From Clostridia bacterium (GTDB lineage: Bacteria > Bacillota_A > Clostridia > Christensenellales > Borkfalkiaceae): DNA of 7,175 nucleotides. Below the pieces are notes generated by a model. That model worked only from the letters and a program-made list of their open reading frames with translations, did no database searches and had not been told where the DNA came from. The position numbers were made by a program, and so were the translations under genes. The DNA lies in NCBI GenBank assembly GCA_017504735.1, contig JAFVQP010000189.1, positions 1 to 7,175 of the forward strand, in the 5' to 3' direction. This document shows, piece after piece, positions 2,521 through 6,054 of the stretch. Each line of letters starts with the position of its first letter. Positions within the stretch are counted from its first letter, which is position 1.

Positions 2521-4353
2521 TTACGCTTTACCAGCCTTTTCCTTGGCACGTGCTTTTGCACGCAATTCTGCATCCAAAATACGCTTTCTGATACGCAAAG
2601 ATTTCGGGGTTACTTCCAACAACTCGTCATCAGCAATAAACTCTAAACATTCTTCCAAGCTCATCTTGCTAACGGGGACAAGCGTCAACGCATCGTCGCT
2701 ACCCGACGAACGAGTATTTGTCAAATGTTTGGTCTTACAAACGTTTACGTTGATATCGTCCGCAAGGTTGGTATAACCTACCACCATACCTTGATATACG
2801 GGCGTACCGGGCGTTACAAACAAGTTACCTCTGCCCTGTGCGTTAAACAAACCGTAGGTAACCGCTTCACCCGTTTCAAACGCAACCAAGGAGCCTGTAT
2901 TTCTACGTTGCATATCCCCCTTATAGGGTTCGTAGGAATAGAAAATGGTATTCATAATACCCTGGCCCTTCGTATCGGTCAAGAATTCACTCTTATACCC
3001 AAACAAACCGCGGGAAGGAACGGTGAATTCCAAACGCATACGCGCACCAATTGCATTCATTTGTACAAGCGTACCCTTACGGTTACCCATTGCAGAGAAT
3101 ACGGGGCCCGTCATATCTTCGGGTACGTCCGCAACAAAGCGTTCGATGGGTTCGTGGATCACGCCGTCGATTTCCTTATACAATACTTTAGGAGTGGAAA
3201 CCTGGAATTCGTAGCCTTCACGGCGCATCGTTTCAATCAAGATAGAAAGATGCATTTCCCCTCTACCGCAAACGCGGAAACTATCCGCATATTCGGTGTC
3301 GTTTACACGCAAGGAAACGTCACGCAACAATTCCTTGTACAAACGGTCGCGAAGTTGTCTGCTGGTAACAAATTTACCTTCTTTCCCTGCAAACGGGCTG
3401 TCGTTTACCGAGAAAGTCATTTCCACGGTAGGATCTTCAATTTTTACAAACTGTACGGGTTCTACCTTCGTAGGCTCGCACACGGTATCCCCAATGCTCA
3501 AACCTTCGATCCCCGAGAACATAACGATATCCCCTGCTTTTGCTTCAGGTACAAGCACCTTTTCCAAGCCTTCGATTTGGTATAAGTTTACGATACGGCA
3601 GTTCGTACGAATCTTCGAATCGTTGAAATTACATAAGGATACAGGCTCGTTTGCACGGATAACACCTCGTTCGATTCTACCGATACCGATACGGCCGACA
3701 AATTCGTTGTAATCAATGCAGGAAACAAGCAATTGACCAGGGCCTTCCACATCCATTTCCATAGGGGGAATGGTTTCCAAAATGGTATCAAACAAGGGGT
3801 TAAGGTTGGGTTCCTGCTTATCAGGGGTAAGGGAAGCCGTACCTTGACGTCCACAGCAATATACAATAGGACTGTCAAGCTGTTCATCCGTAGCGTCAAG
3901 CTCCATCATGAGAAGCTGCATTTCTTCCACAACTTCATCAATACGCGCATCAGGTCTATCCACCTTGTTGATTACGATAATCATTTTTAAGCCCAAAGCC
4001 AACGCCTTTTGCATAACGAAACGAGTTTGAGGCAAAGGCCCTTCCGCCGAGTCAACAAGGATGATTGCGCCGTTTACCATCTTCAAAACACGTTCAACTT
4101 CACCCGAGAAATCCGCGTGGCCAGGGGTATCGATGATGTTAATTTTTACCCCGTTGTAGTGTGTGGAAGTGTTTTTTGCGAGAATGGTAATACCACGTTC
4201 TCTTTCCAAATCGCCGCTGTCCATAACACGATCTTGTACCTGTTGGTTTTCACGGAATACGCCGCCCTGCGCCAACATTTCGTTAACAAGGGTGGTTTTA
4301 CCATGGTCAACGTGCGCGATAATTGCAATGTTTCTTAAATCTTCTCTAATCAT
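2521..4353 (-). CDS. typA: TypA/BipA ribosome-associated translational GTPase
   Basis: 610 residues, full length for the family. TypA binds the 70S ribosome in the EF-G site, hydrolyses GTP and supports ribosome assembly and growth under stress. The GTPase domain covers about 1-200: G1 AHVDHGKT (13-20), G2 RGIT with T56, G3 DTPGH (75-79) and G4 NKVD (129-132). The G5 region reads YCCGRQG (165-171), with cysteine where many homologues have serine in YASA. Beta-barrel domain II follows (about 205-300), then the EF-G III-like and V-like domains ([21 protein letters not shown], split here as [10 protein letters not shown] and [11 protein letters not shown], then [20 protein letters not shown] near 450), then the TypA-specific C-terminal domain ending in a lysine/arginine-rich tail. 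AGGAG (4364-4368) lies 10 nt before the start. It has its own promoter and probably leads a two-gene transcript with the HAD gene. Confidence 0.98.
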
Positions 4354-4505: not shown

Positions 4506-5006
4506 TCATAATTTTTGCGGATTTTTATTTTCGTATTTCGTAAAACGAATGGTATAGCCATTGTCGTTTGTTGGCTCTCCCTCGTCCACGCAAACAAAAT
4601 CGGGGTGTTCGTCGAGGTTTGGAAAGAATACTTCTGCACCACCAATAGCATCTACCTTCGTCACCAACGCATAGTTGCAATAAGGCAACAGCTCGCGGTA
4701 AATTTCATCACCGCCTATGACGTAAATATCCTCATTTTCACGGGCTTTCATCTCCGCTTTTAACTGCTCGTACGAACGGACAATTACACATTCATCGCAT
4801 ACCTGCCCCCTAGATAATACAATATTTACCCTATTTTTAAGTGGCTTTTGACCAGGGAAAGAACGCAGGGTATTTCCACCCATCACAACGGTATGTCCCA
4901 TCGTGGTTTGACGGAAAAATTTCATATCCAAGGGCAAGGAAAACATCATATCATTCCCCTTTCCGATCCCCCATTCCTTATCCGCATGTACAATTGCGTA
5001 AATCAT
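4506..5006 (-). CDS. folA: Dihydrofolate reductase
   Basis: 166 residues, typical DHFR length. It reduces dihydrofolate to tetrahydrofolate with NADPH, regenerating the cofactor oxidised by ThyA encoded just upstream. Seen: EWGIGKGND (11-19), the folate-pocket helix LPLDMKFF with catalytic acid D27 and F31, VVMGGNTLRSFPG (40-52), the KPLKNRVNIVLSR strand (54-66), and the cofactor-binding glycines in IYVIGGDEIY (94-103). In E. coli numbering, position 22 is F instead of the usual W (a change I associate with clostridial DHFRs) and the NADPH-contacting R44-H45 pair is replaced by G44-N45, while T46 is kept. AAAGGAG (5012-5018) lies 5 nt before the start. It is the second gene of the operon, separated from thyA by the unusual repeat element, and ends at a strong terminator. 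Confidence 0.96.
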   Translation of the reverse strand: MIYAIVHADKEWGIGKGNDMMFSLPLDMKFFRQTTMGHTVVMGGNTLRSFPGQKPLKNRVNIVLSRGQVCDECVIVRSYEQLKAEMKARENEDIYVIGGDEIYRELLPYCNYALVTKVDAIGGAEVFFPNLDEHPDFVCVDEGEPTNDNGYTIRFTKYENKNPQKL

Positions 5007-5024
5007 AGATTCTCCTTTGGATTA

Positions 5025-5223
5025 CAGTGAAGTTGTGGCGTTGCCACAGTGAAGTTTATTCCATAAGTGAAGTTGGCTACACCAGTGAAGTTTTTGCGTC
5101 CCGCAAAAGTTATTGCTATTATTAATAACAGCCACAACTTGCCAATAGGCAAACTTCACTTTTCGCAAAGCGAAAAACTTATCTCTTGAAAAGAACTTCA
5201 CTTTGCGTTAGCAAAACTTCACC
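5025..5223. repeat. Mirror-symmetric array of AGTGAAGTT boxes alternating with small stem-loops, between thyA and folA
   Basis: Boxes AGTGAAGTT occur at 5026, 5048, 5066 and 5084 (starts); complementary AACTTCAC(T) boxes at 5152, 5194 and 5215, with a partial AACTT at 5176. Paired boxes are equidistant from a common centre (start plus end sums 10249, 10250, 10250, 10244), and the centre holds the palindrome TTATTAATAA (5119-5128) within AAGTT...AACTT (5107-5140). Between boxes lie short hairpins of different sequence: TGTGGC-GTT-GCCACA (5034-5048), TTAT-TCC-ATAA (5056-5066), TTTTGCG-TCC-CGCAAAA (5092-5108), TTGCC-AATA-GGCAA (5139-5152), TTTTCGC-AAA-GCGAAAA (5160-5176), TTTGC-GTTA-GCAAA (5202-5215). 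No reading frame or gene is visible. TTA flanks both sides (5022-5024 and 5224-5226). It could be a non-autonomous mobile repeat or a structured RNA region in the thyA-folA transcript. Confidence 0.85.
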
Positions 5224-6054
5224 TTAAATTGCTACCGGAATTTTCTTTTCCAGCTTCTCGTATTCGTAATCCACAAGCTTAAAGCTGTCCACCGTGAAGT
5301 CGTAGAAGTTGGTGATACTTTCATCCACAATCAATTTTGGTGCTTTGTGACGGGGGTTTTGTAAAATTTCTTCCACAAGCGGAATATGTCGATCGTAAAT
5401 GTGCGCATCCGCAATCACATGCACCAATTCACCCGCTTTCAAGCCCGACACCTGCGCAAACATGATGAGCAAAATTGCATACTGCACCACGTTCCAATTG
5501 TTTGCCGTCAACATATCGTTGGAACGCTGATTTAAAATACCATTTAAGGTATCCCCCGTTACGTTAAAGGTCATCGAATAGGCGCAAGGATACAAATTCA
5601 TTTCGTGTAAATCTTGGAAATTGTAGATATTCGTCATAATGCGACGGCTGGCAGGGTTGTGTTTCAAATCGTACAACACCCTATCCACTTGGTCAAATTC
5701 ACCCTCTTTATATTGATGTTTTACACCGAGCTGATACCCGTACGCTTTCCCGATGGAGCCCGTTTCATCCGCCCAACTATCCCAAATGTGAGAGTTTAAG
5801 TCGTGAATGTTATTACTTTTCTTTTGCCAAATCCACAAAAGCTCGTCCACGCAAGATTTAAACGCAGTACGACGCATGGTCAAGATGGGAAATTCCTCTT
5901 GTAAATTATAACGGTTGACAATACCAAACTTCTTTACCGTATGCGCAGGCGTACCGTCTTCCCATTTCGGACGCACGTTTAAATCAGTGTCCCAAAAACC
6001 GTTTTCCATAATATCCCGCATATTTTGCGCAAAAATTTCGTCCGCTCTGCTCAT
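5224..6054 (-). CDS. thyA: Thymidylate synthase (ThyA type)
   Basis: 276 residues ending in PVAI, the normal family C-terminus. It methylates dUMP to dTMP using methylene-tetrahydrofolate, yielding dihydrofolate for FolA. Seen: R137-R138 of the phosphate-binding pair (ASRRIM), the active-site loop LYPCAYS with nucleophile C157, QRSND (176-180) holding dUMP phosphate and base contacts, N188 in ANNWNV (the uracil-reading Asn), and DAHIY with H218 and Y220. The loop YPC-A-Y-S and ANNWN replace the textbook PPCH and GLPFN, marking a ThyA subfamily that I recall from other low-GC Gram-positives; all catalytic residues are kept. AGGTGG (6058-6063) lies very close to the ATG (3-4 nt). It is the first gene of the operon with folA; the repeat element begins 1 base after its stop codon. 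Confidence 0.97.
   Translation of the reverse strand: MSRADEIFAQNMRDIMENGFWDTDLNVRPKWEDGTPAHTVKKFGIVNRYNLQEEFPILTMRRTAFKSCVDELLWIWQKKSNNIHDLNSHIWDSWADETGSIGKAYGYQLGVKHQYKEGEFDQVDRVLYDLKHNPASRRIMTNIYNFQDLHEMNLYPCAYSMTFNVTGDTLNGILNQRSNDMLTANNWNVVQYAILLIMFAQVSGLKAGELVHVIADAHIYDRHIPLVEEILQNPRHKAPKLIVDESITNFYDFTVDSFKLVDYEYEKLEKKIPVAI

Follow-up and report, generated by a model that had tools for sequence, protein, structure and literature searches.

MITEs and the ERIC, Correia and BOX elements are short, dispersed, intergenic, non-autonomous palindromic repeats, and the element described here is like them in these respects. The closest described structure is Gut-1 (RF01706), which the 2010 account, in the excerpt available, presents as restricted to the human gut and as a likely noncoding RNA (PMC2864571). 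Gut-1 has its own constant box, GUGAAAU, which alternates with variable hairpins. A second group of related findings concerns 23S rRNA IVSs and their proteins. According to excerpts of the respective papers, the IVS of one species is a horizontally acquired selfish element that is excised by RNase III, and its S23 protein, of unknown function and probably not made there, has a homopentameric relative (PMC4990558); the family PF05635 (23S_rRNA_IVP, hereafter IVP) resembles the Avd protein of DGRs (PMC10053308); IVP ORFs occur within rRNA insertions in CPR bacteria (PMC11270868); and four helix bundle proteins are listed in the phage regions of a fish-pathogen genome (PMC5524665). Within the CC-licensed PMC literature, judged by titles and the openings of abstracts, we found no paper linking IVP genes to hairpin arrays. 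Nevertheless, the link may have been noticed before, because "23S rRNA IVP" appears in a figure legend of a CRISPR-association screen, the finder of which also accepts other repeat arrays (PMC10910872). The array type, hairpins, boxes and mobility go unmentioned in the available part of that paper, and perhaps the screen took hairpin arrays of the kind studied here as repeat arrays.

The element lies between folA and thyA in a stretch of 7,175 nucleotides, which is the whole of the DNA analysed and which we call the window. Its features are as follows.

5025..5223, no strand assigned: whole array-only element, between folA and thyA; the corresponding gaps of relatives are without it
5026..5092, plus: left arm, with boxes AGTGAAGTT at 5026-5034, 5048-5056, 5066-5074 and 5084-5092
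5035-5047, 5057-5065 and 5075-5083, plus: inter-box hairpin segments of the left arm
5093..5107, plus: innermost left hairpin, TTTGCG/CGCAAA
5107..5140, no strand assigned: core AAGTTATTGCTATTATTAATAACAGCCACAACTT, which by sequence comparison corresponds to the slot holding an IVP gene in G008:C81
5141..5223, minus: right arm, with hairpin segments at 5141-5150, 5161-5175, 5185-5193 and 5203-5214
5152-5160, 5176-5184 (two mismatches), 5194-5202 and 5215-5223 (one mismatch), minus: reverse boxes of the right arm
5129..5203, minus: sub-threshold Rfam match to Gut-1 (21.9 bits, E 0.064, gathering cut-off 50)
5224..6054, minus: thyA, thymidylate synthase (PF00303, 4e-85), the stop codon of which abuts the element
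4506..5006, minus: folA, dihydrofolate reductase (PF00186, 3e-38)
5012-5018, minus: AAAGGAG before folA, about 6 nt from the element

Besides folA and thyA, the window contains typA, pgk, a HAD hydrolase gene and, at 394-1653 on the minus strand, a gene for a protein with an RsgI-like anti-sigma central domain (PF23750, 9e-13).

A first-pass annotation, made from the letters alone, had described boxes mirrored around position 5123.5, and this symmetry holds to about 3 nt. There are six exact copies of AGTGAAGTT, four on the plus strand and two (5152 and 5194) on the minus strand, whereas 200 dinucleotide-preserving shuffles of the whole window gave a mean of 0.09 and a maximum of 2. Two further boxes are degenerate, namely AACTTCACC at 5215-5223 and AACTTATCT at 5176-5184. 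The box midpoints lie about 35, 53, 71 and 93 nt to the left of the centre and about 32, 56, 74 and 95 nt to its right. Each half of the array has four hairpin segments, three between its boxes and one next to the core, which makes eight in all. The annotation had called every segment a perfect or near-perfect hairpin, which was slightly generous, as three of the eight are weak (TATTCCATA and CTTGAAAAG with three pairs each, GGCTACACC with two). The core is an imperfect palindrome with distinct edges (AAGTTATTG versus CAGCCACAACTT).

The array is an insertion, and the orthologous gaps of relatives do not contain it. Among 80 folA loci, thyA adjoins folA in 76, these being all the loci in which thyA was located, and two GTGAAGTT boxes within 60 nt occur in none of the 80, the whole retrieved stretch having been checked. 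The thyA-folA gaps of relatives range from an overlap to 191 nt, with the exception of one of 719 nt (L021), which starts with other sequence. The gaps do not hold the drifting stems that the annotation had named among the grounds for refuting its reading; they are without the element. Its other ground, a lack of further copies, did not arise, as the exact double-box pattern is present elsewhere in five of 23 close relatives, while the reversed-pattern control gave 0 in all 23. The matches number 44 in G021, 13 in G006, 5 in G019, 1 in G001 and 68 in G008, the last count being inflated by contig C98, which looks mirrored through an assembly artefact (arrays 4932/43513 and 11590/36874). Across the order, 41 of 396 genomes match the pattern, 22 of them with three or more matches and seven with more than 40; the other 19 have just one or two, and single matches are best regarded as background because about 20 genomes likewise have one or two matches in the reversed control, which never exceeds 2 per genome. 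The window array is one copy of a dispersed repeat family with a patchy presence among genomes, some of which may be incomplete.

The placement of these copies was assessed with AGTGAAGTT clusters, of which 61 were found; two lie within called ORFs, six are at contig edges and 53 could be placed. With gene calls made by a greedy ORF rule, 42 of the 53 fall between co-directional genes, compared with 520 of all 781 gaps, a difference that is not significant (p 0.069). The distance from the end of the array to the next start codon is 14-29 nt in 15 of 48 measured cases. This placement agrees with insertions being tolerated at operon junctions, and a role as an RNA leader is compatible with it too. 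Several variants were also observed. For instance, G021 carries half elements with a single arm (C1 39874-40010, C7 75315-75451, C7 103493-103629 and C16 74699-74825), the first three of which end 15, 22 and 14 nt before a start codon, and at G375:C2 2449-2634 one arm is tandemly duplicated with a 111-nt period. G415 has the window's box mostly in near-identical single box pairs (TTGCGCTATGCGCAA), which may be a different, REP-like repeat, and three Y1 transposase matches are present in that genome. Carriage by phages was considered and rejected: the triple-box pattern matches 51 viral contigs, and, with spacers read by eye, only four stretches (L207, L223, L243 and L250) contain real-looking hairpin arrays. 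All four come from IMG/VR contigs labelled viral and have the window's box (in L223 at 3844-4037 and 7847-8042); at the array, the sequences of L207 and L250 are identical.

The main new finding is the association of such arrays with IVP genes, which was invisible to the first-pass annotation and alters the interpretation. In G375, one element encloses an ORF that belongs to PF05635 (2e-21). This family was found in 28 of 45 genomes searched and in 49 of 200 genomes of the order (46 above the cut-off), compared with none of 14 control genomes. By a box-agnostic finder, 64 of 118 IVP loci have a hairpin array no more than 350 nt away, on both sides of the gene in 10 of the 64, against 13 of 460 random positions drawn from the folA loci of 23 genomes, although part of the 64 calls may be other tandem repeats. 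Within the same loci, an array was present in 69 of 221 IVP-adjacent 350-nt windows and in 5 of 210 windows located 450-800 nt away. The array was upstream of the IVP gene in 61 cases and downstream in 13, the upstream windows being 400 nt long and the downstream ones 350 nt. Thus, IVP genes lie within or beside hairpin arrays far more often than chance would produce. The finder called no array at the remaining 54 of the 118 IVP genes, at least one of which (L285) has a Gut-1 match. Conversely, no IVP gene was detected in the array-rich genomes G021, G231, G316, G347 and G415, which have the AGTGAAGTT/GTGAAGTT box, or in G002 despite its 101 TGAATTG matches; such cases might reflect incomplete assemblies or a lost source copy. 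The GTGAAGTT box accompanies only four IVPs among the 118 loci, one each in G008 and G375 and two in G225. Insertion into rRNA was rejected as a general explanation of the loci, as 0 of 40 IVP loci scanned matched an rRNA family; a tRNA or tmRNA gene was found in 15 of the 40 stretches. The IVP profile matches PDB entries 2rld (4e-38) and 2gsc (2e-4), each with five chains per sequence, and the protein is a pentameric, Avd-like four-helix bundle.

Comparison of IVP loci shows what a fuller element looks like. In G008:C81 and G375:C2, where the box is that of the window, the core slot, which in the window is short and contains no gene, holds the IVP gene, and CAGCCACAA, located 2 nt past the IVP stop codon in G008:C81, also borders the window core. 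The G008:C81 element sits in an operon between genes that, on reading by eye, we take to be def and fmt. In the GTTATATT class, four elements (L280, L283, L312 and L363, from G086, G138, G246 and G174) align pairwise over about 570-640 nt at about 88-90%, with the order terminal hairpin, mirrored array, TATAAT-type promoter (identified by eye), IVP ORF and terminator. Their similarity ends soon after the terminator; only L280 and L283 stay alike for about another 270 nt of downstream flank and may therefore descend from one ancestral site. The sequence of the terminal hairpin varies between most of these otherwise similar copies, being nearly the same in L280 and L283. The element showed no gene for strand transfer or for a nuclease, and a comparison of element ends, for which there was no near-identical empty site, established no target-site duplication. 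In the window, no IVP gene was found among ORFs of at least 80 aa, read by eye and, for six of them, with Pfam. The simplest reading of these sequences is that the window copy would have lost its IVP gene and kept its arms.

The boxes also go with the proteins. For 53 of the 64 array-bearing loci, to which a box class was given by hand (11 were left out), the closest IVP shares the box in 48, while 2000 permutations gave a mean of 6.1 and a maximum of 17. The agreement persists in IVP pairs at 58-80% identity, and some agreeing pairs are more than 90% alike, so the agreement partly reflects common descent of whole elements and close kinship. Three of the five disagreeing pairs combine ATGAAG with the similar GTGAAGTT, and two separate IVP lineages (L355/L356 and L315/L361) have the AGTGAAGTT box. 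The abundance of boxes was compared between IVP classes in tables built on the hand-assigned classes. The difference is convincing for TGAAAT, with matches off the IVP locus in 7 of 7 genomes that have an IVP of this class and in 4 of 38 others, G180 being counted among the others even though its locus L298 was TGAAAT in the test above. It is weak for two other classes, TGAATTG (4 of 5 genomes against 10 of 40, p 0.027, with IVP-locus matches subtracted for G086 and whole counts used for the other four genomes) and GTTATATT (3 of 4 against 10 of 41, p 0.066).

The first-pass annotation had stressed that boxes are constant while stems vary and stay paired, and related loci confirm it, with 365 of 413 unique spacers scoring as hairpins. 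The window itself folds far better than its shuffles, both as plus-strand DNA (z = -7.15) and as RNA in the thyA-folA sense (z = -8.0), with 0 of 200 shuffles equalling either value. The stems of the 365 hairpin spacers, a count that excludes the 48 non-hairpin spacers, contain 1744 Watson-Crick pairs, 4 G.T, 14 A.C and 35 other mismatches, 23 of which are C.T, often within a TC/TC internal loop. In contrast, the stems of 103 tRNAs from the same DNA (nine of 112 being excluded) contain 1123 Watson-Crick and 108 G.U pairs. Because the hairpin score is biased toward Watson-Crick pairs, we added a count in a fixed register, set by spacer length with no selection on that score. There, 147 spacers of the GTGAAGTT class have 659 Watson-Crick, 9 G.T, 18 A.C and 21 other pairs, so that G.T is no commoner than A.C, and 24 of 34 positions show three or four Watson-Crick types. 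In the TGAAAT class, the counts are 400 Watson-Crick, 1 G.T and 4 C.A. Hence, the two arms of the stems co-vary without the wobble intermediates that selection on RNA usually leaves. As the stems are almost purely Watson-Crick, pairing seems to be maintained at the DNA level, and the absence of wobble points to single-stranded or cruciform DNA, or to the copying of one arm from the other. G.U pairs were too few to read the direction of transcripts from the strands. The symmetric TC/TC internal loop recurs in some hairpins across box classes, in arrays of G395, G404, G228 and G078 (e.g., TTGC-TC-GC-GTT-GC-TC-GCAA), and is perhaps a recognition feature.

The window array had been taken for an undescribed family, which proves not wholly right, because Rfam already lists a single arm of this architecture under the name Gut-1 RNA. 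Gut-1 is the closest Rfam match to the window, and in the GTDB family of G008 its model has matches in 57 of 151 genomes, 32 of them above the cut-off; among 14 control genomes, E. coli gave a match below it. Matches above the cut-off fall within six IVP loci (L285, L291, L292, L294, L297 and L303), and in the loci inspected Gut-1 is one arm of a mirrored element. The window's own box is present in Gut-1-matching elements of G057 and G078. Further box types are GTTATATT/GTGATATT, ATGAAATC, GTGAATTG and ATGTAAT.

We favor the reading that the window array is a non-autonomous, internally deleted copy of a small IVP-associated mobile element, to which we would assign a probability of roughly 60%, the proposed role of IVP included; its status as a dispersed repeat of a mobile type is much firmer than its mode of movement. 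The fuller element would consist of two mirrored arms, each with about four boxes of 7-9 nt spaced by short DNA hairpins, together with a single IVP gene, placed in the core or a short way downstream of the arms. The IVP pentamer may bind the boxes, with the hairpins holding them at a set spacing, and this binding could mark the DNA so that host enzymes copy or excise it; array-only copies such as that of the window would be served in trans. We infer from the near lack of G.U pairs that the hairpins act, or are renewed, as DNA in a single-stranded or cruciform state, with one arm possibly copied from the other. A more ambitious proposal, which we can only offer tentatively and with some doubt, is that these elements are mobile elements of a new class, in which no transposase, nuclease or reverse transcriptase can be recognised and the sole protein, the pentameric IVP, is the mobility factor and recognises boxes presented by hairpins, each IVP lineage having its own box. 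Gut-1 would then be one arm of such an element and not an RNA, and the 23S rRNA IVSs would be a specialised branch.

Other explanations deserve consideration. The array could be an mRNA leader or a noncoding RNA, with IVP as an RNA-binding regulator and the copies in operons tuning translation or RNase III cleavage. The listing of Gut-1 as a likely noncoding RNA in the excerpted account (PMC2864571), the excision of a 23S rRNA IVS by RNase III, as stated in the excerpt of PMC4990558, the distances to start codons and the frequency of clusters between co-directional genes all speak for such a role. Nevertheless, we consider it unlikely, given that G.U pairs are almost nil in the stems and far more frequent in tRNAs, that G.T does not exceed A.C, that the orthologous sites of relatives lack the array and that the co-directional excess over all gaps is not significant.

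Movement by known enzymes appears less probable still. REPs are intergenic multicopy hairpins with a constant short tag, and this resemblance counts in favor of REP/BIME-like repeats whose mover is a Y1 (IS200/RAYT) transposase and whose link to IVP is secondary. We regard this as very improbable, since Y1 is absent from 14 of 23 relatives and Y1_Tnp from 12 of 16 array-bearing genomes (including G375, G180, G404, G395, G326, G008 and G021), and an array was found at just 1 of 21 Y1 loci in a crude test with fixed coordinates; Y1/RAYT was thus rejected as the mover, in agreement with the first-pass view that these are not standard REP/BIME repeats. It is also conceivable that IVP, like the Avd of DGRs, assists a reverse transcriptase in copying array RNA into new sites, as the excerpted likeness of PF05635 to Avd (PMC10053308) might suggest. 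This would be the most improbable of the alternatives and was likewise rejected, because the reverse transcriptase family PF00078 is missing from 18 of 21 array-bearing genomes.

The association ties together the S23/IVP proteins, to which the excerpted literature ascribes no known function, and Gut-1, which in the available part of the 2010 account had no known host. It predicts a code between protein and box that can be tested. The arrays are, moreover, a natural case of hairpin arms being rewritten with pairing kept, in what is likely a mobile element without a recognised mobility enzyme.

Comparison with the described systems shows both likenesses and differences. As is expected of MITEs, the window's repeat family has dispersed copies and orthologous sites without the element. 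In contrast to MITEs and the ERIC, Correia and BOX elements, the boxes of the hairpin arrays are constant while their stems are rewritten, the partner is IVP and no transposase was found. The arrays are not CRISPR, as the first-pass annotation had held, since their spacers are hairpins and their boxes invert. DGRs have a related four-helix-bundle protein in Avd (excerpt of PMC10053308), and they differ in the reverse transcriptase that most array-bearing relatives lack. The likeness to Gut-1 lies in the succession box-hairpin-box-hairpin-box, which the window alignment displays, although the box differs and the Rfam model describes a single arm of three hairpins, as RNA. RNA-type pairing that tolerates G.U would be expected of Gut-1, and the TGAAAT-class stems do not show it; the 2010 account as excerpted (PMC2864571) mentions neither an inverted second arm nor an IVP gene nor the lack of wobble. 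Finally, the sole gene of the 23S rRNA IVS belongs to the same protein family as that of the fuller hairpin-array elements, but the IVS resides in the 23S rRNA gene, whereas the elements described here carry box-hairpin arrays and are located in gaps between protein genes or in the vicinity of a tRNA or tmRNA gene, with that of the window lying between thyA and folA.
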